Shown: piece after piece, positions 16,500 to 32,888 of the stretch
Numbering within the stretch: the stretch's first letter is position 1
Layout: each line of letters begins with the position of its first letter
Origin: an uncultured Hyphomicrobiales bacterium
Lineage (GTDB): Bacteria; Pseudomonadota; Alphaproteobacteria; Rhizobiales; Beijerinckiaceae
Length of the DNA: 33,308 bases
Assembly: GCA_903825465.1 (NCBI GenBank)
Contig: CAIKAR010000057.1
Location: 1 to 33,308, forward strand
Direction: 5' to 3'
Made by a program: the position numbers and the translations under genes
Notes under the pieces: generated by a model
Database searches by the model: none
Seen by the model: the letters and a program-made list of their open reading frames with translations, nothing else
Told to the model about the DNA's origin: nothing

Positions 16500-18506
16500 A
16501 TGATCGTAAAAACCGCGCCTTGCGCGGGAGTCGGCGTATTGTTCGCGTTGATCCCGCTTTCGCTTGCCCACGCCGACCCCGCCACCGTCGCCCTGCCCGA
16601 CATCACCGTGACCGCCGACCGCGTCGAGGAACCAGCCTCGCGCTCCGGCTCCTCGCTCACCATTGTTCCAGCCGAACAAATCGACAAATACGGCATCGCG
16701 GGCGTCGCCGACGCGCTCCGCGAGGTTCCCGGCCTTGATGTGGTCGACAGCGGCGGCGCCGGCTCCCTCACGACCGTCAATCTTCGCGGCGGCGGCGCCG
16801 GACACACCCTCGTGATGATCGACGGCGTCAGGATCGGCGATCCGACTTTTCCCGATGGCTCGCTCGATTTCGGCAACCTCTCGGCCGTCAACATCGAGCG
16901 CATAGAGGTGCTTCGCGGGCCGCAGTCGGCGCTTTACGGCTCGGACGCGATGGGCGGCGTGATCAACATCATCACGCGCAAGGGAGCCAAGACCCCGCAA
17001 CGCTCGGTGACGATCGAGGCGGGCAGCTACGGCACGATCTCGGCCCGCGCGTCCCTCTCCGGCGGAGACGATCTCTGGACCTATTCGCTCGGCGTCAATC
17101 TCTTTCACGCCGACGGATTTCCCCGTTACGGCTACCGTATCAACAGGCCCATCGTGATCGGAGACGGCGTCACGCCGCTGCCGACTTTGCCGAGGGCGGA
17201 CCCGACGGACAAGGGCGGCGTCGGCGGCCGCTTTTCCTATCGCGCCTCCGACATCGCGACGATCGATTTCGGCTTCAACCTGCAAAGCAACGCGCTCCGG
17301 TACGACAATCCCTTCGCCACCATGCCGAGCGACGTGTTCAATTCCTACAACCACTCGAAAGCGTTCATCGCCGACGGCTTCGTCAAGGCGACGATCGACC
17401 CCTGGAACGGCCTCTGGAAGCATCAGTTCACGGTTTTCGGCAACGTCACCAAGCGCGACAGCTGGGAGACGGAAGGCTGCTTCGACGCGAACTTCAACCC
17501 CTTCAACTGCAAGAGCGGCTTCCAGGGCGGCCGCTTCGGCGGCGAGTACCAGGGCGACGCGAATTTCGGCTCCTTCGGCGCCCTCACCTACGGCGCGCGC
17601 ACGGAGACGGAAACCGCGACGACCTCGCAGGATCCCAATCCGAACGATGGCTCCTTCACCCCGATCTCGGCGCGGCAGATCACGAATTCCTTGTTCGCGG
17701 AATACCGCTACACGGCGTTCGAGCGTCTCGATCTGACGGCGGGAGGCCGCGTCGACGCGATTCAGGGCGGATCGACCTTCACGAGCGGGCGCGCGACCGC
17801 CGCGTATCGCTTCGAAGAAACCGGGACGAAGGCGCGCGCGAGCTACGGAACGGGCGCCAAGGCCCCCACGCTCTTCCAAAGATTCAGCCTGTTCGGCACG
17901 GCCGGGCTGCAACCCGAAACGAACTGGGGGTACGATTTCGGGATCGACCAGAAAATCCTTGGCGACCGGGCCACGGTCTCCGCGACCTTTTTCTCGTCCG
18001 ACTACAAAAACCTGATCGGCTTCGCCAATCTTCCGGCGTGCTCGCCCGCGCAGATCCTGAACGGCGGCGGCTGTTACTTCAACGTGAACCGCGCGCGCAC
18101 GCAGGGCGTCGAGGTCTCGATGGACGCGTCGATCGTTCCAGACACGCTTCGCGCCAAGGCGAGCTACACCTACACCGACACGCGCGACCTCGTGACGCGG
18201 CTGCAAATGCTGCGCGTTCCCTATCACAAGGGATCGTTTTCGGTGACCTATGATCCGACGCCGCGGTTGGAGATCGAACCCCGCGTGCTGCTCGTCGGCG
18301 CGGCGTTCGACAACAACACCACGACGTTTCAGCGGGTGACCTTGTCGCCCTACGCGAAGTTCGACCTTCTCGCCCGCTACAAGATCAACGCGAACCTCTC
18401 GGCGTTCGGGCGCATCGACAATCTCACCGACGCGCGCTACGAGGAGGTTTACAACTACGGGACGGCTGGCAGAGGGTTCTACGCCGGCGTCAACTACACA
18501 TGGTAG
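16500..18506 (+). CDS. btuB: TonB-dependent vitamin B12 receptor BtuB
   Basis: Outer-membrane receptor that takes up cobalamin with energy from TonB-ExbB-ExbD. 668 aa. A signal peptide (1-25, ending AHA-D) is followed by the TonB box ITVTADR (35-41). The plug domain has VADALREVPGLDVVDSGGAG, VLRGPQSALYGSDAMGGVIN and IITRKG. The beta-barrel ends in FYAGVNYTW with a terminal aromatic residue. The start has GGAGG 4 nt upstream. The riboswitch in front makes a cobalamin substrate close to certain. The next gene starts 10 nt after its stop. No btuCDF or cobalamin-synthesis gene is in the window. Confidence 0.95.
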   Translation: MIVKTAPCAGVGVLFALIPLSLAHADPATVALPDITVTADRVEEPASRSGSSLTIVPAEQIDKYGIAGVADALREVPGLDVVDSGGAGSLTTVNLRGGGAGHTLVMIDGVRIGDPTFPDGSLDFGNLSAVNIERIEVLRGPQSALYGSDAMGGVINIITRKGAKTPQRSVTIEAGSYGTISARASLSGGDDLWTYSLGVNLFHADGFPRYGYRINRPIVIGDGVTPLPTLPRADPTDKGGVGGRFSYRASDIATIDFGFNLQSNALRYDNPFATMPSDVFNSYNHSKAFIADGFVKATIDPWNGLWKHQFTVFGNVTKRDSWETEGCFDANFNPFNCKSGFQGGRFGGEYQGDANFGSFGALTYGARTETETATTSQDPNPNDGSFTPISARQITNSLFAEYRYTAFERLDLTAGGRVDAIQGGSTFTSGRATAAYRFEETGTKARASYGTGAKAPTLFQRFSLFGTAGLQPETNWGYDFGIDQKILGDRATVSATFFSSDYKNLIGFANLPACSPAQILNGGGCYFNVNRARTQGVEVSMDASIVPDTLRAKASYTYTDTRDLVTRLQMLRVPYHKGSFSVTYDPTPRLEIEPRVLLVGAAFDNNTTTFQRVTLSPYAKFDLLARYKINANLSAFGRIDNLTDARYEEVYNYGTAGRGFYAGVNYTW

Positions 18507-18516
18507 GGCGAATCCT

Positions 18517-19071
18517 ATGAGCGATCGCGGCGGCAACAGCGTTGGAACGGAACAGGCCGTCTTCGGGGCCGGATTCATCGCCATCGCCTTTCTTTTCAGT
18601 TACGGCCTCGCTTGCGTCACGCCCTTCGCGGCGCTGGCGACCATCGCTGGCCGCAGCTTCAATCGAACGGCGGCCGCCGCGATCGTGATCGTCGCCTGGC
18701 TTCTCAATCAGGCCGTCGGCTATGGCTTGCTGGACTATCCGCGGACATGGGACAGTTTCGCCTGGGGCGGCGCGATCGGAATCGCGTCGCTCGGGGGCCT
18801 GGCGCTCGCCAGACCGCCTCTCCTTGAAAAGGCGCCGCAACCCCTGGCCATATCCGCCGCTTTCGTCGGCGCGTTCTGCGCCTATGAAGCGACGCTCTAC
18901 GCCGCGACATGGTTCCTCCCGTCGGAGCCCGTGGCTTTCGCTCTTCCGGTTGTCGCCGAAGTGTTCGTCATGAACGCGCTCGCCCTGGCGATCTTGACGT
19001 TGGCGCGGTGGCTCGCGGTGAAATTCGGGACGCGGATTGGCGTTCGCGGCGCCTCTATCGCCAGCGCCTGA
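18517..19071 (+). CDS. Five-span inner-membrane protein in the cobalamin riboswitch operon
   Basis: 184 aa. Hydrophobic segments at about residues 15-43, 51-73, 81-98, 108-130 and 140-168 indicate a polytopic inner-membrane protein with a short cytoplasmic N-terminus. Conserved-looking features are FSYGLACVTPFAALA (28-42), NQAVGYGLLDYPRTWDSFAWG (64-84) and FCAYEATLYAA (120-130), with two membrane cysteines (33 and 121). The gene begins 10 nt after btuB with AGGG at the ribosome-site position, so it is under the same riboswitch. I cannot place it in a named family. Its size and context recall single-subunit vitamin B12 transporters such as BtuM, but I see no decisive motif. A role in cobalamin or cobalt passage across the inner membrane is an inference. 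Confidence 0.85.
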   Translation: MSDRGGNSVGTEQAVFGAGFIAIAFLFSYGLACVTPFAALATIAGRSFNRTAAAAIVIVAWLLNQAVGYGLLDYPRTWDSFAWGGAIGIASLGGLALARPPLLEKAPQPLAISAAFVGAFCAYEATLYAATWFLPSEPVAFALPVVAEVFVMNALALAILTLARWLAVKFGTRIGVRGASIASA

Positions 19072-19096
19072 TGCGCCCCCTGGCGAGTGCGAGTTA

Positions 19097-22000
19097 GTGA
19101 TTGAGTTCAATGTTCTGCGCGTCGTCAAGACTTTGCCCTTCTCCCTGTTAATGACCACGGCGCTCGTCAAGCCATCGCTGGCCGCCTGCACATCGAGCCC
19201 GGACAATCTGACCTTGAACTGCTCGGGGCCGCTGTCTGGGGGTTCCGGCGTGCCGATCACGGTTTACGACGCCGCCGCCGCTTTTCAGCCTGTCAACGGC
19301 TCCAACGGCTATACGCCCGCCAATCCGGCGTTTCCCGCAATCAGCAATCCGAACAATCCGGGCTACAATCCAAATCCACCCACCGTCACGCTCAATTTCG
19401 ACAGCACCACGGCGCTCAACGCCCTCAACCCGGCGACCGGCTCTTTCGCCGACAAGGGCCTGATCTCCGCCAATTTCTCCAACAACGAGAACCCGGCGGT
19501 CAACAACGTCGTGCTCAACAATTATGGATTGCTGGCGTTCTCCACCAATCAGATAGCCACCTCGCGCCTGGAGTTGATCAACGCCGACAGCCAGGTCAAC
19601 AACTTCACCGTCAACAACGCCGGGACGCTCGCGGTCACGCAGACTTTTTTCAGCGCGTTCAACCCCGCCAGCCTTTCGGTCACGCCCAGCGGGTCGCCCG
19701 CGACAGCCAACGCCAAATACGCCGGCGCCACGCTCAACGACATGGCGGTGATGTACTCCGACGACAACACCAACGAAGTCGCGGTGAACAATCTGGCGGG
19801 TGGAAAGATTCTGGCGACCGGCAATTACGCGACTCCCTTTTATGGACGCGCCGACACCACCGTCGTCAATTCCGGCATCATCGCCAACACGACTTGGTCG
19901 CCCACGGACACGATCGCGGCGGGCCATTGGGCCTTCGCCGCCTGGGGCGGCACGGACTACAATACCGCGCCCAACACCAATCCCGACAGCACGATTGTTT
20001 TGCCCAATCCCGATGGCTCCGTGACTGTCCAGGACACCTCGGCGCTCACGCTGACAAACAACGTGGGCGGCGTGATCAAGGGCGATTTTCTCGCGCTCGA
20101 CGTGACCCCAACGGTCTATGCCGCCGCCGTCGGCGCCAGCGCGAACCCCTTCCCCAATCCGGGATCGACGACGCCGCTCACCTTGCCGATCGCCAGCAGC
20201 AACGCCGGCCCCCGCGACAGCAATGTTGAGAATTACGGCTCCATCGCCGGCAATTTTTATCTCGGCTCGGGAACGCATGTGCTCGACAACGCCGCCGGCG
20301 CGACCCTGGCGGGCAGCGTCTATGTCGATCAACGCCCCTCCCAGGTGGTGTTCTCCACCCCGACCGCGGGAACCGTCGCCGGGACTTACCTGAGCGCCGG
20401 AGGAACCGATTTCAACGGCAACACCTGCGTGGCGGCTGGCCAGAACACGACGGACGCGGGTTGCGCGACCACCACCAAAATTCAAGCGACCGTCGTCGGC
20501 GGTCAGTCGCTGACCCTCACCAACGAGGGCACGCTCACCGGCGACATCAAGATCATGGATCAGGCGACGTCGGTCAATTCAATCGCGCTGACGGGCGGCG
20601 GCTTCACCGGCAATATCGTCGCGTTGAATGGCACGGGCTCGAACAGCCTGTCGCTCTTTGGCGTGACCAATCTCGCCAGCGTTCAAAATTTCAACTCGGT
20701 GAATTTGAACACGTCCAACGTCACGGTGGCGGGTGGCGTTTCGCTGATGCCCAATTCAACTCTCGCCACGACAATCGCGGGTCCTGGCGGAACCGCGGCC
20801 GCGCCCAACATCACGAACATTGGTTCGATCATTGGCCAGTTGTTGCTGGGCGGAACGACGACCATCCTGCCAACCTTCGCCGCCATCGTCCACAATGGCG
20901 ATGTCTATCAGGTCGCCTCGTCCGTCTTTGGCCCGGGCGTTCCGACCATCTCCGTCGCCAATCAGGGCGGCCTCGTCTCCCTGACCGCGGATACGAGCAA
21001 GGGTTCGTTGCTGCTCGACGCGAGCGTCATTGGCGTCAACCAGATTCCAGGCATGTCGAAAGCCGGAACGGCGACGCTCAACAATCTGTTGAACTACTAT
21101 GGCTCCAACGCCAATGTTCAAGCCCTGGGAGCGGCGGTCGAAGGCCTGACGCCCAGCGCCGCGGGAGCGGTCGCGGAGCAGTTGCGGCCTTCCGTCAATG
21201 GCGGCTCGATCCAGATGCCGACGTCGATCAACACTCTCTTCGCCAACCAGATTTCCAGCCGCCTCGGCACGTCTTTCTACGGCGCGGGTTCAATGACCGG
21301 CGTCGGGCCGCGCGATTTCGTCGCCAGCTCGGCTTTGGTCGGCAAGAAGCCGGCCGCCGCGACAAACGACGAAGGCGTCTGGATGAATGTCGTGGGATCG
21401 ACCGCGACGCGCCAATCGGTTGACGGCATATCGGGGTATCAAGCCGATATCGCCGGCTTCATAGCTGGTCTCGACCGGTCCGTTGGGCCGGGAGCGCGCG
21501 TTGGCGCCGCCGTCGGATACGCGACCGGCTGGGCAAAGGACTCGACCCTTCCAGGCAATAGCTTGAAAGTGCAATCGGTCGAGGGATTGGTCTATGGATC
21601 GCTGATCAAGAACCAGAATTTTGTCACCGGCGCCGCCGGGATCGCGAGCCTGAACTATCAATCCAACCGGAACATCAATTTCGCCGGGTTCGCCGACGCG
21701 GCGACGGCGACGCGTTCGGGAATGCTTTTTTCGGCCCAGGTCGACGCGGGCCGTTATGTTCCCATGAGCTTCGGCAGCCTGGCGCCGTTCGCCTCGATGG
21801 CCTACGCCCATATCGACCAAGGCGCTTACGGCGAAAACAGCTTCGCCGGCGCGGCGCTCAATGTCGCGAGCCAAAAGACGGATTCGCTTCAGTCCGGCCT
21901 CGGCCTCAAGGCGGTCGTGCCCTTCGCCATGCCCGGCTTCGCCGACTCGGCGTTCGAGGCGCGCGCGGCGTGGCGGCATGAATTCCTGAACACAGCCGAA

Positions 22001-24652
22001 TCCGTGACCGCCGCTTTCCCGGGATCGGGAACAGCCTTCCAGGCGGTCGGCCCGTCGCCGGCCCGGGACTTCGCCGATGTCGGCGCGGCGCTGCGCTTCG
22101 CGCTCCCCGCGGACGGCCAGACATTCGAGATCAGCTACAACGCGCGCCTGGGCGCCCATTACACCGAACAATCCGCGATGCTGCGCGCGCGCTTTGATTT
22201 TGGAGATGAACAAGCCGGAGCGCTGCCCGGTGGATCGGCGAGAGATCCGGTCGCCTTCTTCCCCGTGGCGATGAGCAAATTGGCGTCCGCCATCGCAGGG
22301 GCTGGCGCGCCGCGGGTGGATGGCATTTCCCAAGCGGACGCCTCGGGCGCCGGCGCTCAGTCCGCGGGCCCGCCCTATTTGGCGCAAGTCGCCGATGGCG
22401 TTGTGCAACTCCCGACCATCGACGTGTTCGCCACGACGCCGCTTTCGGGCAGCCGTGTCGATGTCGATAAAACGCCGGCCGGAATCACCACCATCGACGC
22501 CGCTCAAATCGAGCGGGAAAAGTCGCAAAACATCGTCAAATCCCTGGCGCAACAAACCCCCAGCATCACCGTCCAGGACGTCGCGGGAAATCCATTCACG
22601 CCCGACGTGATTTTCCGCGGCTTCGACGCCTCGCCGGTCTCCGGCACGCCGCAGGGCCTCGCGGTTTATCAGAACGGCGTTCGCATCAACGAGGCTTTTG
22701 GCGACACGGTCAACTGGGACCTCATTCCGACCTCGGCCGTGCGCTCGATGGACGTCGTCACCAACAACCCGGCCTTCGGCCTCAACGCCCTTGGCGGCGC
22801 GATCAGTCTTCAGATGAAGGATGGCTTCAATTCGCCCGGGACCACGATCGACGTCATGGGCGGCTCCTATGGCCGCCTGCAAACCTCGTTGCAATGGGGC
22901 AAACAGATCGGCGACTACGCCGCCTACATCGCGATCGAGGGCGCGCGGGACAATGGCTATCGAGACTTCTCGGGATCGCAGGTCCGCAGGTTCTACGGCG
23001 ACCTCGGCTACAAGAACGACGGCGCCGAGGTTCATCTGAATATTGGCGGCGCGGACAATTTCTTTGGCGCGACCGCCGCCGCTCCAGCCGAACTGTTGCA
23101 GCGAAATCTCAGCAATGTTTACACCACGCCGCAATCCTCGCTGAATCAAGTCGGCTACGTCAACGCGACCGTGAAGCTCGATGTCTCGCCGACCTGGGTG
23201 TTGCAGGGCGCGGCCCATTATCGCTCATTCTATCAGACCACGGTCGATGGCAACTCGACCGACGCGCAGACATGCGACGCCGACGCGACGCTGCTCTGCT
23301 TTAACGACGGGGTTTCGCCCGCCAATGGCCGCAACGGTCAACAGCTCGCGAATCCGTTCCCGGCAACCGCGACCTTGGGCGAAACCGACCGCACGCACAC
23401 GCAATCGACATCGGTCGGAACCACCCTCCAGGCGACAAACACCGATCAGATCATGGGCCATGACAATCACCTCGTCATGGGTGGCAGCTTCGACTACGGC
23501 GTCAGCAATTTTGGAGCCACGGCCGAACTCGGCAGCGTCTTGCCCAATTACCAGATTGCTGGCGCGGGAATATTTTTGGGACCGTCGGGCACTCCCGTCT
23601 CCGACGGGCCGGTCTCCCTGCGGACGACAAACACCAACGGCGGTCTCTACGCCCTTGATACGTTCGATGTCACCAAAGAGCTCTCGGTTTCCGCCGGCGG
23701 CCGCCTGAACATCGCCAATATCCGGCTGGAGGATCAGCTTGGCGGCGCGCTGAGCGGCGTCAACACCTACACACGCTTCAATCCGATGATTGGCGCGACC
23801 TACAAGGTAACAACCGATGTCACAGCCTACGCCGGCTATTCCGAGGCCAATCGAGCGCCAACGCCCCTGGAGCTGGGCTGCGCCGACCCAAATCAACCCT
23901 GCATCATCGCGAGCTTTCTTGTCGCTGATCCGCCGCTCAAGCAGGTCATCTCGCGCACCCTCGAAGCCGGGCTTCGCGGCAGCCATGATTTTGGCGCTGG
24001 CACTGGAAAGCTGGGCTGGAAACTGGGCGTCTTCCGCACCGACAATCAAGACGACATCATGAACGTGCCGAGCCCCTCCCTTCAGGGCTTCGGCTATTTC
24101 CAGAATATTGGAGCGACACGGCGGCAGGGCCTTGAGGCGGCGGTCGATTTCAAGGCCGAGAAAATCAACGTTTACGCCAGCTACGCCTATGTCGACGCGA
24201 CCTTCCAAAACGCGCTCGCCCTCGCGTCGAACTCGCCATTCGCCGATGTGAACGGCAACATTCAAGTGTCCGCGGGCAATCAAATTCCGATGATCCCGCG
24301 TCATCGCTTCAAGCTGGGCACCGACTACTCCATCACTAGGGATTTCAAAATCGGCGCGGACCTCCTGTACGTGGGTTCCCAGTACTTTTCCGGCGACGGC
24401 TCGAATCAATTCCCGAAGTTGCCGGGTTACGCCGTGGTCAACGCCGACGCGTCCTACCAAGTCATGAAAAATGTCCAGGTTTACGCGCGCGTCGAAAACC
24501 TGTTCAACAACGCCTACAATACATTTGGGACGTTCTTCGACACGACGGAAATTCCAAACTTCGTCAATGGCGGCGCGGCCTTCACGGATCCCCGATCGCT
24601 TAGTCCGGGTCAACCCCGGTCGTTTTACATGGGGGTCAAGGCGACGTTCTGA
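19097..24652 (+). CDS. Autotransporter-TonB-dependent receptor fusion protein (two outer-membrane barrels in one chain)
   Basis: About 1,851 aa in one open frame. GTG 19097 gives a signal-like leader (VLRVVKTLPFSLLMTTALVKPSLAA) ending near residue 30; its ribosome site is weak, and the frame is open from 19037. Residues about 32-700 are an Asn/Thr/Gly/Ala-rich beta-helical passenger with repeated strands such as VNNFTVNNAGTLAV and SLTLTNEGTLTGDIKI. Residues about 758-1037 are a whole autotransporter barrel (DEGVWMNVVGSTATRQ onward) that ends in the sorting strand SAMLRARFDF. A linker of about 65 residues leads to the TonB-box-like PTIDVFATTP (about 1106). The plug follows (IVKSLAQQTPSITVQDVAGN, then DVIFRGFDASP), and then a full receptor barrel with LGWKLGVFRTDNQDDIMNV, ending FYMGVKATF. 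It starts 25 nt after the previous gene, within the riboswitch operon. No stop or internal signal peptide separates the halves. The ligand is unknown. Confidence 0.9.
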   Translation: MIEFNVLRVVKTLPFSLLMTTALVKPSLAACTSSPDNLTLNCSGPLSGGSGVPITVYDAAAAFQPVNGSNGYTPANPAFPAISNPNNPGYNPNPPTVTLNFDSTTALNALNPATGSFADKGLISANFSNNENPAVNNVVLNNYGLLAFSTNQIATSRLELINADSQVNNFTVNNAGTLAVTQTFFSAFNPASLSVTPSGSPATANAKYAGATLNDMAVMYSDDNTNEVAVNNLAGGKILATGNYATPFYGRADTTVVNSGIIANTTWSPTDTIAAGHWAFAAWGGTDYNTAPNTNPDSTIVLPNPDGSVTVQDTSALTLTNNVGGVIKGDFLALDVTPTVYAAAVGASANPFPNPGSTTPLTLPIASSNAGPRDSNVENYGSIAGNFYLGSGTHVLDNAAGATLAGSVYVDQRPSQVVFSTPTAGTVAGTYLSAGGTDFNGNTCVAAGQNTTDAGCATTTKIQATVVGGQSLTLTNEGTLTGDIKIMDQATSVNSIALTGGGFTGNIVALNGTGSNSLSLFGVTNLASVQNFNSVNLNTSNVTVAGGVSLMPNSTLATTIAGPGGTAAAPNITNIGSIIGQLLLGGTTTILPTFAAIVHNGDVYQVASSVFGPGVPTISVANQGGLVSLTADTSKGSLLLDASVIGVNQIPGMSKAGTATLNNLLNYYGSNANVQALGAAVEGLTPSAAGAVAEQLRPSVNGGSIQMPTSINTLFANQISSRLGTSFYGAGSMTGVGPRDFVASSALVGKKPAAATNDEGVWMNVVGSTATRQSVDGISGYQADIAGFIAGLDRSVGPGARVGAAVGYATGWAKDSTLPGNSLKVQSVEGLVYGSLIKNQNFVTGAAGIASLNYQSNRNINFAGFADAATATRSGMLFSAQVDAGRYVPMSFGSLAPFASMAYAHIDQGAYGENSFAGAALNVASQKTDSLQSGLGLKAVVPFAMPGFADSAFEARAAWRHEFLNTAESVTAAFPGSGTAFQAVGPSPARDFADVGAALRFALPADGQTFEISYNARLGAHYTEQSAMLRARFDFGDEQAGALPGGSARDPVAFFPVAMSKLASAIAGAGAPRVDGISQADASGAGAQSAGPPYLAQVADGVVQLPTIDVFATTPLSGSRVDVDKTPAGITTIDAAQIEREKSQNIVKSLAQQTPSITVQDVAGNPFTPDVIFRGFDASPVSGTPQGLAVYQNGVRINEAFGDTVNWDLIPTSAVRSMDVVTNNPAFGLNALGGAISLQMKDGFNSPGTTIDVMGGSYGRLQTSLQWGKQIGDYAAYIAIEGARDNGYRDFSGSQVRRFYGDLGYKNDGAEVHLNIGGADNFFGATAAAPAELLQRNLSNVYTTPQSSLNQVGYVNATVKLDVSPTWVLQGAAHYRSFYQTTVDGNSTDAQTCDADATLLCFNDGVSPANGRNGQQLANPFPATATLGETDRTHTQSTSVGTTLQATNTDQIMGHDNHLVMGGSFDYGVSNFGATAELGSVLPNYQIAGAGIFLGPSGTPVSDGPVSLRTTNTNGGLYALDTFDVTKELSVSAGGRLNIANIRLEDQLGGALSGVNTYTRFNPMIGATYKVTTDVTAYAGYSEANRAPTPLELGCADPNQPCIIASFLVADPPLKQVISRTLEAGLRGSHDFGAGTGKLGWKLGVFRTDNQDDIMNVPSPSLQGFGYFQNIGATRRQGLEAAVDFKAEKINVYASYAYVDATFQNALALASNSPFADVNGNIQVSAGNQIPMIPRHRFKLGTDYSITRDFKIGADLLYVGSQYFSGDGSNQFPKLPGYAVVNADASYQVMKNVQVYARVENLFNNAYNTFGTFFDTTEIPNFVNGGAAFTDPRSLSPGQPRSFYMGVKATF

Positions 24653-24799: not shown

Positions 24800-26089
24800 A
24801 TGGATCCGAAACCGAGCAGCCGCAGGGAGCTCCTCTTAAAAGGCAGCGCGCTGGCAGTGGGAACGGTGGCCGCGGGCGGGGCCGTCGGCGACATCGCGTT
24901 GGCCGACACCCCGGCGAAGGCGCTCCCCTCGTTCACGGCGAACGAAGCGCCGATGGTTCCCTCCACCGACGCCACGGTCGCCTACGGCGTTCGCTCGCAT
25001 TACGTGACCTCGAAGCGCCTGCAGGAACCCGGCCGCGCGGTGCCGGCCATCTACACGGACTTCGGATTGACGGCCCATGTGTTTACGCCGTTGCAGGATT
25101 CCTACGGCACGATCCAGGCGTCGTCGCTCCACTACTTCGCCACAACGAAGGGCTCTTTCATCCCCGACATCGATCCCGCGCAGCACACTCTGACGATTCA
25201 GGGCCAGGTGGAGCGGCCCCGGGTTTTCACCATGGCGGATTTGAAGCGTTTTCCATCTGTCAGCCGGTTCCATTTCATCGAGTGTTCGGCGAACAGCCAC
25301 AACGCGTCGCATAAGAACGTGCAGGAATCGCACGGCGCGACCAGCAACGCGGAATGGACCGGCGTGCTCCTTTCAACTCTGTTGAAGGAAGTCGGCGTGA
25401 AAGAAAAGGCGGGTTGGTTCATCGCCGAAGGCGCCGAGGAAATAAAGGGCGCGGACACCATTCCGCTCGCCAAGGGGATGGACGACGTCTTTGTCGCCTA
25501 CGCCATGAATGGCGAGCCCGTGCGTCCGCACAACGGGTTTCCAATTCGCCTCGTGGTCCCCGGCTTCGAGGGAATCTTCAACACCAAGTGGCTGCGCCGC
25601 ATCAACGTCACCGACGAATATCAGTTGAACATGGACGACTTTGGGCATCTGCGAAAGGACGCGGTTGGCGCCGCGCTCGGCTACACGTGGGGACCCAAGT
25701 CGGTCATCACGTTCCCGTCGGGTTCGCAGAAACTGCCCGATCAGGGATGGTACGAGATCACGGGGCTTGCCTGGTCCGGTCAGGGCGCCGTCAGCAAAGT
25801 GGAGATATCCACCGACGGCGGGAAGTCGTGGAACCTTGCCGACCTCAAGGGGACTCCGCAGCGCATGGCGCACACGCGGTTCGGCTATATGTGGAAGTGG
25901 GAAGGCGGCGAGCACGTGATTATGTCGCGCACCACCGATGAAACCGGATCGATCCAGCCGACTGGGCAACAAGTCGCCGAGTTCTTCAAGGAAGCTTATA
26001 CGCCGAAATACACGCCGCCTGGTCGAAACAACTCTATCATGCCGTGGAAGATCGCCAGCGACGGGAGCGTGACAAATGGGCTCGCCTAG
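24800..26089 (+). CDS. soxC: SoxC/SorA-type molybdenum sulfite or sulfane dehydrogenase, catalytic subunit
   Basis: 429 aa periplasmic oxidoreductase of the sulfite oxidase family. The N-terminus has a Tat signal (SRRELLLKGSALAVG, residues 7-21). The molybdopterin domain (about 85-290) contains FHFIECSANSHNAS, where Cys162 is the expected molybdenum ligand, and GAEEIKGADTIPLAKGMDD. The C-terminal Mo-co dimerisation domain (about 300-400) has LAWSGQGAVSKVEISTDGGK. Electrons should go to the cytochrome c encoded immediately downstream, with which it overlaps by 14 nt. Sulfite is the likely substrate because no soxXYZAB genes are present. The symbol reflects family resemblance; SorA-type naming would be equally fair. 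The start is fixed by GAGGA 4-5 nt upstream. Confidence 0.9.
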   Translation: MDPKPSSRRELLLKGSALAVGTVAAGGAVGDIALADTPAKALPSFTANEAPMVPSTDATVAYGVRSHYVTSKRLQEPGRAVPAIYTDFGLTAHVFTPLQDSYGTIQASSLHYFATTKGSFIPDIDPAQHTLTIQGQVERPRVFTMADLKRFPSVSRFHFIECSANSHNASHKNVQESHGATSNAEWTGVLLSTLLKEVGVKEKAGWFIAEGAEEIKGADTIPLAKGMDDVFVAYAMNGEPVRPHNGFPIRLVVPGFEGIFNTKWLRRINVTDEYQLNMDDFGHLRKDAVGAALGYTWGPKSVITFPSGSQKLPDQGWYEITGLAWSGQGAVSKVEISTDGGKSWNLADLKGTPQRMAHTRFGYMWKWEGGEHVIMSRTTDETGSIQPTGQQVAEFFKEAYTPKYTPPGRNNSIMPWKIASDGSVTNGLA

Positions 26090-26657
26090 GATCGTCGCCG
26101 TACTCCTGCTCCTGACAAGCCCCGCGCTCGCGCAGACCTATGGCATAGGGCGCGCTCCCTCCGCGGAGGAACTGGCCGCCTCGAGCATCACCATCAGCCC
26201 CACGGGAGCGGGACTTCCGCCGGGCCATGGCAACGCTATCGAGGGCGAAAAGCTTTTCACGGAGAAGAATTGCATCGTGTGTCACGGCGAAGAAGCCGTG
26301 GGAGGGATAACCGCCGCGCCCAGATTGAAAGCGACGAAAGGCCCGGAAGTCAGCGCCTGGAATCGCGGGGCGGGCGGCAACGGGTTGCCCGTGAAGGCGC
26401 CGTCCGCGACGATCGCGTGGGATTTTATCAATCGCGGCATGCCTCTGGGCAACGAGGGGTCTCTCAAGCCCGATGAGGTGTATGCGCTGACGGCCTACCT
26501 GCTGTTCATCAACAAGATAATCCCGGAGGACCAAGTCCTCGATCAGGATAATCTGGCGAAGGTCAAGATGCCGATCGGCGACGACTGGGCTCCGGTGCCC
26601 GGCGCGCGCCCTGATTGGAAGCCCGGCGAGCCAAGGTATCCGGGTTACCCCTACTAG
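26076..26657 (+). CDS. Mono-haem cytochrome c, electron acceptor of the SoxC-like enzyme
   Basis: 193 aa, periplasmic. A signal peptide (1-19, ending ALA-Q) precedes a mature domain with one haem site, NCIVCHG (Cys66, Cys69, His70). GMPLGNEG supplies Met122 as the probable sixth ligand. The C-terminal tail is proline-rich (GARPDWKPGEPRYPGYPY). Its first 14 nt lie inside the end of the molybdoenzyme gene, so the two are coupled and the protein should take electrons from sulfite oxidation and pass them to a cytochrome oxidase. It is shorter than the dihaem SoxD of Paracoccus and longer than the SorB of Starkeya. A long hairpin follows about 37 nt after the stop. Confidence 0.93.
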   Translation: MGSPRIVAVLLLLTSPALAQTYGIGRAPSAEELAASSITISPTGAGLPPGHGNAIEGEKLFTEKNCIVCHGEEAVGGITAAPRLKATKGPEVSAWNRGAGGNGLPVKAPSATIAWDFINRGMPLGNEGSLKPDEVYALTAYLLFINKIIPEDQVLDQDNLAKVKMPIGDDWAPVPGARPDWKPGEPRYPGYPY

Positions 26658-29456: not shown

Positions 29457-30524
29457 TCATACCGCGGCGAATCCACCATCGGCTTGGGAACTCAGCCATT
29501 CATCGTCGGCTGTCGTGATCAGGGCCTTGGCGCCGGGATACGCGGCGAGAATTTTCGCCGCGTGTTCGCGTCCCGCGACATAGATCGACGTCGCCAGCCC
29601 GTTGGCGACCATCGCGCTTGGTGCGGTGACGGCGATGGCGGTCATCTTGACCGCGGACAGCCCGGTGCGCGGATCGAAAATATGATGATAGCGCCCTGTC
29701 TCTTCAAATGGCGTGCCATAGCCGCCCGACACGGCGAGACCGATATCCTCAAGGTCGAGCGTTCGTCCGAAACGCGCCTGATTCTTGGGGTCGCGCAGGC
29801 CGATCCGCCACGGCCTGCCGTCGGGGTGGTCGCCGATCAGCCTGATCTCGCCGAGATCGGCGTAGACGTGTGTGAATCCCCGCTCGCGCAGCATGTCGGC
29901 GACGCGGTCGGCCACAAAACCCTGGCCGATCGAATTCAGCGTGACGCCCGTCCCCCGTCGCCCGAGGGCTATTTTGCGCGGGCTGACATCGACGAGGCGA
30001 TAATCGACCAGCCGCTCCGCCACATCCCTCGCGGCGGCGTCGATGTCGGTCGACTTGTCGGCGCCGCTCCAAAAATGGGCCGCGTAAAGCTCCCAGAGTG
30101 GCTGCACCGTGATGTCGAAGGCGCCGCCGCTCAGTTCGCTGAACTGGCGGCCCGCGCTCAGTTGATCGCGCAACTCCCATGATGGGTTGTCGAGAAAACC
30201 GTCGCGATTGAGCCGCGAAATCTCGCTGTCGTCGCGATAGAGGCTGAAGATGCCGTCAAGGCGGGCGACTTCGGAGCGGACTTCCTCAATGGCGCGGTTG
30301 GCGACAACGGGGTCGTCGTGCCAGAGCGCCAGTTCCGACAACGCGCCCATGACTTCGAGCCGCCAATCATAAAGCTTGCCCTGTGGCGCCAGCGCGCGGA
30401 CGCCTCCAGCGAGCGCGGGCACGACAGCGGCGGCCGCGACAATTTTCAGGAATCGCCGCCGCGGCGGCGCTTTGTCCCGGATCGCGCCTGGCGTCGTCTC
30501 AATCGGCGGGAGGTTTGAGCGCAT
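29457..30524 (-). CDS. nosX: FAD:protein FMN transferase, NosX/ApbE family
   Basis: 355 aa periplasmic flavin transferase that attaches FMN covalently to a threonine of a partner such as NosR. A Tat-like signal is present (PPRRRFLKIVAAAAVV, residues 20-35). ApbE landmarks are GALSELALWHDDP, FDITVQPLWELYAAH, the FAD/Mg motif VTLNSIGQGFVADRVADML, and LGEIRLIGDHPDGRPWRIGL followed by DP. The GQGFVADR and HPDGRPW forms are characteristic of NosX rather than of generic ApbE. Start ATG 30524 has GGGGAGA 7-8 nt upstream; an in-frame start 18 codons earlier lies inside the nosR-like gene and is less likely. It follows the nosR-like gene by 19 nt, matching enzyme to substrate. Confidence 0.9.
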   Translation of the reverse strand: MRSNLPPIETTPGAIRDKAPPRRRFLKIVAAAAVVPALAGGVRALAPQGKLYDWRLEVMGALSELALWHDDPVVANRAIEEVRSEVARLDGIFSLYRDDSEISRLNRDGFLDNPSWELRDQLSAGRQFSELSGGAFDITVQPLWELYAAHFWSGADKSTDIDAAARDVAERLVDYRLVDVSPRKIALGRRGTGVTLNSIGQGFVADRVADMLRERGFTHVYADLGEIRLIGDHPDGRPWRIGLRDPKNQARFGRTLDLEDIGLAVSGGYGTPFEETGRYHHIFDPRTGLSAVKMTAIAVTAPSAMVANGLATSIYVAGREHAAKILAAYPGAKALITTADDEWLSSQADGGFAAV

Positions 30525-30543
30525 TCGAAATTCTCCCCGTGAC

Positions 30544-32661
30544 CTACGCTTTATCCGCGGCGGCGACGGCCGGCGCAAGTATCGAGCCGCCGTCCGGCCT
30601 GGCCACGCGCTTGCGGATGGCGGCGAGCGGCGGACAGCGATGATCGTCGTAATATTCCACTTGGCAGTCGAGGCATTGGAAACATTCGGCCGTCTTGATC
30701 TTGCCGGCGCGGGAGATCGCCTTGACCGGACACGAGTTCTCGCAGAGATGGCAGGGGCTCCCGCATTCGGGACGCCGCTTCAGCAGATCGACGAGATGCA
30801 ATCGGTCGGCGAGCGCGAGGACCCCGCCTAGCGGGCACAGAAAGCGGCAATAGGCGCGCTCGGTGAAGAGGCCAATCACGAGCAGCGCGCACGCGTAGAA
30901 GACATAGGGCCACGCGCGGGTGAAATGCGACGTGATGGCGGTGTCGAAAGGCTCCACCTCCGCGAGCGGCCCCATGTCGATCGAGAACGCGGCGAGGCCG
31001 AGGATGAGCGCCGCTGAAACATACTTTCCAAGCCACAGATATTTTTGCGCCGATTCAGGCGGATTCCATTGCGGCAAACCGATGACGCGCGAAAGCTGCG
31101 CAAGCAATTCCTGCAAGGCGCCAAAGGGGCAGAGCCAGCCGCAAAACACGCCGCGGCCCAGCAACACAAGCGAGATCGCCGTGTATATGGCGATCATCAC
31201 CATCAGCGGCTCGGCCAGATAAAACCCGAACTCGATATGGCGGAATGGCGCCTCCATGTAATTGACGACATGGAAGATGGAGAGCTGGCCTCCGGCGATC
31301 CAGCCTTCCCAGACCAGCACAAAAAGCAGGAACGAATTGCGGACGATCCGATGGGCGCGTCGCGACCGCGCGAGCTTCGTTTGAAAGGCGAGAATCAAAG
31401 TCAAAAGCGCGAGCAGCGCGGCCTCGATGAGAACATTCGTTCGAGAGGCGCGCCAGGCCTCGACCCAGGCTGGCGCCGGCGGAGGCGGCGGCGTCAGTAT
31501 ATGCGAGGCGGGAAGTTGATAATCGACCGGGAAGGCGAGCGAAAGGGGCGAGCCAGCCGCCGACTGGCCATTCACCAACAGTTCAAGCCGCCATGGCTTC
31601 AGCGGATCGAACCGGGACGTCGCCGGAAGCGTGAAAACCGCCGCATGGTCCAAGGCCCTTATGCCGTCATGGCCGCCGGTGTCGATCCGCTGATATTGGC
31701 TGTTCGTGAATTGGTACGCCTGCTCGCCTTGAACAACGCGAAGGCGGTCAAACCGGTTCGCGCCATCAAGATCATCGACAAAATCATAAGGGCCTTTCGA
31801 GGCGACGAATATCTTCCAGGGGAGAAACTTCATGCTTTTGCCGCGCGGACCGAAATAATCCACGTAATCGCCGCCGAGCACATTCCGGTTGATGGAAGCC
31901 GGCGTCGCGAGCCCGGTGTAAATATCGATATAAACGCCATTCGGGCCGGAGAGCGGAACATCAAGCTTCGCGCCCGCGACATTGGCTTTGCCAAGCGCCG
32001 CGGCGACGTCCGCGTCGGCGATGGCTTTGTGAACAATCGAGCCCTCGGCGAGCAGGTCGTCCCATGACATCCGCCTGAAGCCGTCGATGTCGACAGCGGG
32101 CCCCGAAACCGTCGCCACCTTCGCCTTGGCCAGGCCGCGGCCGATCAGAACAAGCTGCGCTGAATCGAAAACGGCGCCCCGCATCGCGCGCGCGGTCACT
32201 GTGGCTTCCGCGACATAGTCGGGAGGCAGAGCGCCGGGATTTCCGCCTTGCGACGCCAATCCGGCTGTGCGCGCGAGAAAAGTGTCGAGCTGAGGCTGCC
32301 GGATCTCGTCCTGATAGACATGCGGCTCGCGGTGAAAGACGACTTTCGCGCCGCTGACGCGGCCGGCGAGATCCACCGCCGCGATCACATCGAAGGGAAC
32401 GCTGGAAAAGGCAAGCGCGTCAACGACATCCAGCGTGGAGAAGATGTAGCCGGCGATCTCGTCATCGCGATAGACGGCAATAGCCGACGGATTGCCCTCT
32501 TCCGGTCCAAGCTTTTCAGCCCCCGGCCAGACGACCGCCATCACATCGGGCGTCAAACGGTCCAAGAGATGTCCGGCTTCGGCGTCCGCTCGTGAATCGC
32601 CAAGGAGCATGGAGAGAAGCAGCGCGACGAGAAATAAAGCGGCTGCCGCCCGTTCGTTCAC
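30544..32661 (-). CDS. nosR: NosR-like flavoprotein/polyferredoxin membrane protein
   Basis: About 706 aa from GTG 32661, which gives a clean signal segment (NERAAAALFLVALLLSML). TTG 32682 is an alternative, and the frame is open to 32814. Order: periplasmic FMN-binding domain (about 75-180) with RDDEIAGYIFSTLDVVDAL; a central beta-rich periplasmic part with PYDFVDDLDGANRFDRLRV; then about six spans. Membrane CxxxCP motifs are CGWLCPFGALQ and CRFLCPLGGVLA. At the C-terminus two 4Fe-4S ferredoxin-like clusters read CGSPCHLCENSCPVKAIS and CFQCLDCQ with CPP. NosR feeds electrons to nitrous oxide reductase across the membrane. The FMN attachment motif here is DYVAEATVT instead of the usual SGAT form. 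No nosZDFYL follows, so another acceptor is possible. Confidence 0.9.
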   Translation of the reverse strand: MNERAAAALFLVALLLSMLLGDSRADAEAGHLLDRLTPDVMAVVWPGAEKLGPEEGNPSAIAVYRDDEIAGYIFSTLDVVDALAFSSVPFDVIAAVDLAGRVSGAKVVFHREPHVYQDEIRQPQLDTFLARTAGLASQGGNPGALPPDYVAEATVTARAMRGAVFDSAQLVLIGRGLAKAKVATVSGPAVDIDGFRRMSWDDLLAEGSIVHKAIADADVAAALGKANVAGAKLDVPLSGPNGVYIDIYTGLATPASINRNVLGGDYVDYFGPRGKSMKFLPWKIFVASKGPYDFVDDLDGANRFDRLRVVQGEQAYQFTNSQYQRIDTGGHDGIRALDHAAVFTLPATSRFDPLKPWRLELLVNGQSAAGSPLSLAFPVDYQLPASHILTPPPPPAPAWVEAWRASRTNVLIEAALLALLTLILAFQTKLARSRRAHRIVRNSFLLFVLVWEGWIAGGQLSIFHVVNYMEAPFRHIEFGFYLAEPLMVMIAIYTAISLVLLGRGVFCGWLCPFGALQELLAQLSRVIGLPQWNPPESAQKYLWLGKYVSAALILGLAAFSIDMGPLAEVEPFDTAITSHFTRAWPYVFYACALLVIGLFTERAYCRFLCPLGGVLALADRLHLVDLLKRRPECGSPCHLCENSCPVKAISRAGKIKTAECFQCLDCQVEYYDDHRCPPLAAIRKRVARPDGGSILAPAVAAADKA

Positions 32662-32888
32662 CGCCCGGACTGAGATTGGCAAAGCGAAGCCTTCCCCGAT
32701 GCGGCGAGCGAGCCAGCGTATATTGCAAAAAAGCCGGACAGCTTGCTCAACCGTTATTCGCCGGATGGCCGTTGGCTCGACCAAAAATATGCCGCGGCCT
32801 TCGGCTTTTGACAAGCCCGGCTAGCGGCCAGAGCGGTCGCGGGCTAAAACTTTCACGCGGACAAATTCACGACTGGATGGAGGTTCCT
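32662..32888. other. Divergent region between the nosR-like gene and the RibD-C family gene
   Basis: The stretch contains the uncertain 5-prime end of the nosR-like frame. On the minus strand TTGAGC (32750-32745) lies upstream of AT-rich ATATAC (32723-32718), a poor promoter match, but one that would place transcription after the TTG at 32814 and supports the later start. On the plus strand TTGACA is at 32808-32813 without a well-spaced -10. I see no operator or terminator. Confidence 0.35.

Follow-up and report, generated by a model that had tools for sequence, protein, structure and literature searches.

The 33,308-nucleotide stretch of DNA analysed here (the window), which derives from an uncultured Hyphomicrobiales bacterium, encodes an autotransporter (AT) and a TonB-dependent receptor (TBDR) within one uninterrupted chain. 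The same architecture occurs in five other database clusters, at 45-97% identity, and comparison of these sequences indicates that the fusion is genuine and recurrent, not an accident of assembly. Domains and fusion alike appear to exceed chance, since the domain scores lie far above the cut-off and the fusion recurs. On balance, we lean towards a double-barrel protein derived from a classical AT fused to a LutH-like TBDR, in which the passenger would aid the receptor and the ligand would be a lanthanide chelate.

The open frame spans positions 19037-24652 of the forward strand, which carries all parts of the fused gene, and gives 1,871 residues from a TTG with no internal stops. Initiation at the GTG at 19097, a choice backed by the closest relative (P0001), gives 1,851 residues up to the stop at 24652. 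In the 1,871-residue numbering, Pfam matches are to PF03797 at 781-1035 (profile 1-255 of 255, E 1e-46), PF07715 at 1143-1255 (profile 2-107 of 107, E 7e-13) and PF00593 at 1440-1822 (profile 99-436 of 436, E 8e-50). The AT barrel terminates in SAMLRARFDF at Phe1035 when counted from 19097 (nucleotide 22201; residue 1055 of the longer frame). A further 816 residues follow without a stop, so that the AT barrel is internal and not the C-terminus of the chain; the last residue of the receptor half is likewise a Phe.

Read from the start at 19097, which is also that of P0001, the chain begins with an N-terminal signal peptide (approximately residues 1-29; 19097-19183), assigned from a hydropathy peak of 1.84 in LPFSLLMTTALV. 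An AlphaFold2 model of the AT half (the first 1,036 residues; mean pLDDT 85.1) comprises a beta-helix passenger over approximately residues 30-644 (19184-21028), helices at 655-725 (21059-21271) that link passenger to barrel, and a barrel at 759-1035 (21371-22201) in which we count 12 strands, two short ones excluded. The assignment of this barrel draws on PF03797, on the model, on standalone relatives and on Foldseek, where the nearest solved folds to the AT half are EstA, AaaA, EspP, NalP and BrkA. A linker of approximately 70 residues (22202-22408), predicted to be disordered (pLDDT < 50) and expected to be periplasmic, leads to a TonB-box-like segment, LPTIDVFATTPL (22409-22444), recognised by eye from its likeness to the mature N-termini of standalone receptors. 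The plug domain (22463-22801; PF07715) and the TBDR barrel (22838-24649; PF00593) complete the chain, and the nearest solved folds to the receptor half in Foldseek are PqqU, Fiu, YncD and other receptors. Its 22 strands, three short ones excluded, are our count on a weak model spanning residues 745-1871 in the 1,871-residue frame (mean pLDDT 62.7, with a poor plug), which was relied on solely for the number of barrels; it places two separate barrels on either side of the disordered linker. The single open frame, the Pfam domains and the models bear out the initial annotation in its proposal of one chain with two intact barrels, and the weak model across the junction agrees with it.

The AT half shares with type Va ATs such as EstA, EspP, NalP and BrkA a signal peptide (by hydropathy), a passenger (a beta-helix in the model), a helix and a 12-strand PF03797 barrel whose aromatic end strand closes in Phe; unlike theirs, its barrel is internal, with those 816 residues after it. 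The receptor half has the plug and barrel of a TBDR (PF07715 and PF00593, with 22 strands in the weak model). By Pfam and the models the chain holds at least two complete barrels and belongs with the multi-barrel outer-membrane proteins, which were reportedly described by Solan et al. in 2021. It resembles these in having two complete barrels per chain joined on the periplasmic side, and differs from them in pairing a 12-strand AT that carries a surface passenger with a 22-strand energised receptor. The available text of two reports (PMC11494523, PMC8592465) describes GfcD as a multi-barrel outer-membrane chain of 12+13 strands, which speaks against the earlier premise that an AT barrel must be C-terminal. 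The accompanying claim that the architecture lacks precedent in kind is likewise not supported, since multi-barrel chains are known and a PF13505 barrel is present in 113 of the 120 listed long proteins of the receptor family itself. P0018 and P0021, for instance, belong to the same receptor family as the window protein and carry a PF13505 (Omp25-like) second barrel, which in contrast to the window arrangement is small, C-terminal and without a passenger. Named examples of PF13505-carrying receptors come from Bradyrhizobium and Steroidobacteraceae; in P0063 and P0099, two Omp25-like barrels seem by eye to come after the receptor, giving three barrels in all. The multi-barrel class is thus already known, and the pairing of an AT with a TBDR is not described in the titles and abstract openings of the literature matches listed.

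A search with the full chain retrieved 18 proteins: four fused chains, 13 standalone ATs and one receptor with another barrel. The fused relatives are P0001 (97% identity to the window), P0002 (49%), P0003 (48%) and P0006 (45%). P0001 may come from the same species as the window or a sister species. The receptor-half search covered proteins of at least approximately 1,029 residues, and the best 120 of its 159 matches, which were listed, comprise the same four fused chains, P0107, 113 proteins that carry a PF13505 barrel and two in which no second barrel is annotated. P0107 is a fifth fused chain, truncated at its N-terminus; it and the three more distant chains clearly belong to other lineages. 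A profile built from the fused alignment gave 67 matches, 28 of which are set apart by score as the AT family (four fused and 24 standalone). Both halves of the fused chains align throughout at 45-50% identity and are free of stops. On plasmids, the AT half matched once, by its barrel alone, and the receptor half gave 31 records; of the 15 listed, none is annotated as a fusion. The window genome is a draft of 142 contigs, and an assembly or sequencing artefact could in principle have joined two genes; this reading is extremely improbable, and was rejected, because five other clusters share the architecture, one of them standing for 11 sequences. The junction had been taken as real in the initial annotation, and its recurrence in other assemblies upholds this, just as the five clusters answer its question of whether other database chains combine an AT beta-domain with a TonB plug and barrel.

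The signal peptide at the N-terminus appears, on the basis of hydropathy, to have no clear counterpart elsewhere in the chain, as had been proposed from the window alone. The maximum 12-residue hydropathy in the linker is 1.57, narrowly below the 1.66-2.71 of 16 hand-picked receptor N-termini (14 standalone and two with a small C-terminal barrel), and the four other fused linkers reach 0.91-1.10. Among five fused chains (P0107 excluded) the linker cannot be aligned, whereas both halves align throughout. GC content by codon position is 0.77/0.60/0.70 in the 70-codon linker against 0.58/0.46/0.77 in the receptor, the positional bias being weak in the linker. Between the window and P0001, the passenger is 94.7% identical, the AT barrel 97.8% and the receptor 99.1%. 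Translation may re-start within the linker, where an ATG (22271) and a GTG (22265) lie in frame, but no obvious Shine-Dalgarno sequence is seen by eye near either.

The separate counterparts of the two halves suggest how the chain was assembled. All 13 standalone ATs from the full-chain search terminate at the residue where the fused AT barrel ends, Phe1035. Standalone receptors (29 loci, inspected by eye) have an apparent signal peptide of their own, followed by the TonB-box-like stretch that is retained in the fused chain. The initial annotation had held that finding the halves as two genes in relatives, with a signal peptide on each product, would count against the fusion; such receptors and ATs (P0004, for example) do exist, but they do not refute it because they show the parts before fusion. 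The fusion itself is sparsely distributed. Among 51 genomes of the window's genus it is present in the window genome only, and a further ten match the receptor but not the AT half, in two cases (G392 and G333) as fragments. Within the family (397 genomes), 12 genomes match the AT profile, five by the passenger (the window included) and seven by the barrel alone; two of the five passenger matches are partial. The 397 genomes drawn from the order contain one AT match besides that of the window.

In trees of both halves the window pair falls among standalone rows, and a single clade of all six fused chains is rejected for each half (AU test, p-AU 1e-75 and 2e-42). P0002, P0003, P0006 and P0107 as one clade give p 0.451 in the AT-half tree; the N-terminally truncated P0107 occupies half of the AT columns. 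The receptor tree comprised 29 standalone receptors and ten long receptors labelled as small-barrel fusions, from the 113 listed with PF13505; one of the ten, P0129, was labelled by length and has no PF13505 match. The G392 and G333 fragments, both receptors of G050, second copies such as L088 and L096 and most receptors of genus g95 were omitted from it. Since the trees of both halves reject one clade of fused chains, the simplest reading of the sequences is that the fusion arose at least twice, and a single ancient fusion uniting all six rows was rejected. One old fusion may instead have been followed by splits or recombination, but the receptor would then have had to regain a signal peptide at each split.

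Gene order in relatives connects the two families in a minority of loci. In a Rhodoblastus metagenome-assembled genome (L045), the receptor is followed by lanmodulin on the opposite strand and then by the AT. In g95, a genus of another family, an AT is followed by a receptor on the same strand, unfused, at three loci (L163, L164 and L165) in G817 and G818; stop codons lie between the genes, and the receptor has its own signal peptide. These pairs represent three of ten AT loci in 22 g95 genomes, two of them (L163 and L164) are closely related, and their ATs are distant from the window's (29-39% identity). Open frames of length 2011 and 2084 in G817 and G818, considered as further fusions, were rejected, as stop codons separate two genes. 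In G009 the AT and receptor are far apart, and no receptor of this TBDR family lies in the sequence fetched around the AT at L060, L118 and L166-L169. Comparison of gene order, which had been put forward as a check, thus gives a divided answer: tandem genes occur in some relatives, and most AT loci are apart from a receptor. AT-receptor pairing is a minority state; as a rough estimate, it is far above chance for the few receptor genes in a 4-Mb genome.

The genes that flank the fusion in the window encode a BtuB-like receptor, a SoxC-like dehydrogenase, a cytochrome c, ApbE and a NosR-like protein, and are not lanthanome genes. Just upstream (16500-19071, forward strand) lie the BtuB-like TBDR and a 184-residue membrane-type protein that has no Pfam or NCBIfam match. 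Downstream (24800-26657, forward strand), the gene for the SoxC-like sulfite dehydrogenase, which scores below the NCBI cut-off, overlaps that for cytochrome c. A distance of 5-8 kb separates the ApbE and NosR-like genes (29457-32814, reverse strand) from the fused gene; in L100 (9867-13762, reverse strand) ApbE and NosR-like genes directly adjoin the receptor gene of a relative. The fused gene lies approximately 8 kb from rpsB-tsf, and receptor orthologs in genus g10 (L115 and L117) are within a few kb of rpsB-tsf.

Of particular interest is the ligand of the receptor half. Like LutH-like TBDRs, it has a plug, a 22-strand barrel and a TonB-box-like N-terminus; unlike them, it lacks a clear signal peptide, is preceded by an AT and belongs to a genome in which no lanM was found. 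Because some related TBDRs lie near lanmodulin or PQQ-dependent alcohol dehydrogenase (PQQ-ADH) genes, the receptor half may be LutH-like by gene neighbourhood, its membership by sequence being putative. LanM genes above the NCBI cut-off lie less than 3 kb away from related receptors in G222, G184, G158 and Methylobacterium nodulans pMNOD02, the last with methanol dehydrogenase genes approximately 10 kb beyond the receptor and LanM genes. In at least eight of 28 other receptor-bearing genomes, PQQ-ADH matches lie no more than 7 kb from the receptor. Neither lanM nor a lanthanide-type PQQ-ADH is found at the window locus, and no LanM passes the cut-off in the window genome or in any of the 21 tested genomes of its genus. 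In these 21 genomes, which were chosen and are not a random sample, PQQ-ADH matches number 2-12 where the receptor is present (nine of 11 tested, the window included) against 0-2 where it is absent (12 of 40 tested; Mann-Whitney p 8.6e-5, with related species counted as independent). The D-x-D motif in a PQQ-ADH is a mark of lanthanide use, and all 12 PQQ-ADH matches of the window genome (L150-L160) carry it (read by eye in L151, L152, L158 and L160), in a genome with no lanmodulin match. In M. extorquens, according to the available text of one report (PMC7391723), lutH and lanM are neighbours, and without lutH most lanthanide uptake is lost; La in the medium still falls slightly, and acclimated growth appears later. 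Related receptors also adjoin sensor kinases with a MoxY-like domain (L105, L068, L103) or without one (L110, L114) and ExbB genes (L100, L101, L102), and other receptor neighbours are unrelated (MgtE, a nucleoside transporter, an AcrB-type pump and a phage integrase).

The main competitor to a lanthanide chelate is that the fused receptor imports PQQ or an iron siderophore, the link to PQQ-ADH then reflecting scavenging of the cofactor. PqqU with PQQ is the best Foldseek match, and the NosR-like and ApbE genes lie near the fused gene and beside a relative's receptor. NCBIfam scores for the receptor are 88 bits for PqqU, 101 for siderophore and 102 for hemin families, all far below cut-off. 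The PqqU match is, however, barely above iron receptors, many receptors having nearly equal fold scores, and LanM lies close to related receptors in the four genomes named above; we give the PQQ or iron reading appreciable weight, short of an even chance. As a lead the rare-earth interpretation is good, but it is not a result.

Under the double-barrel reading, fusion would have joined two genes that adjoin each other in some other bacteria, and the whole chain would be exported through one Sec signal. BAM would insert the 12-strand barrel, from which the beta-helix would pass to the surface, and would separately insert the 22-strand receptor barrel. Barrel ends point towards the periplasm in both families, as does the TonB box; a short linker would accordingly be enough, and the predicted topology is consistent. 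The beta-helix would then stand beside the mouth of the receptor, most likely gathering or shielding the ligand, probably a lanthanide chelate that would supply the lanthanide-type PQQ-ADHs of the cell. The passenger has no recognised Pfam domain up to E 0.1. It contains 33 acidic against 13 basic residues, and in the single set of 28 aligned ATs used here 14 of these 33 (within 31-700) stay acidic in 90% or more of the rows. This acidity fits a cation-handling surface and is no proof of one. The fullest form of the idea, a covalent rare-earth harvester in which a lanthanide-collecting beta-helix is tethered through two BAM-inserted barrels to its importer and which was built at least twice, is speculative and rather doubtful.

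Two readings would dispense with cooperation between tethered halves. The linker might be cut during or after export, releasing an ordinary AT and an ordinary receptor in fixed ratio; the predicted disorder of the linker, its variation in length and sequence among fused chains, and the existence of unfused tandem genes, which implies that two products work elsewhere, all speak for such a polyprotein. We nevertheless hold it unlikely, as no cleavage motif is recognised by eye in the linker and the second signal peptide has been lost repeatedly, which points to a joined state that is tolerated or useful. All 70 linker residues (1036-1105) are identical in P0001, which carries little weight in so close a relative. 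Less likely still is a neutral accident, in which loss of a stop between neighbours was kept by drift and the barrels act independently. The fusion is indeed rare, scattered and missing from most genomes searched, but the same two families are fused in the same order in lineages that do not group as a single clade, and both halves have stayed alignable throughout and stop-free at the identities given above. Because the fusion recurs and the genes pair, a joint function of AT and receptor is likely.

The double-barrel chain offers a natural test of BAM, namely whether it recognises an AT end strand inside a chain and whether it can insert a pair of large barrels belonging to the same polypeptide. 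In addition, recurrent fusion and tandem genes name an AT family without an assigned function as a partner of a probable lanthanide receptor, and the role of its passenger thereby becomes directly testable.
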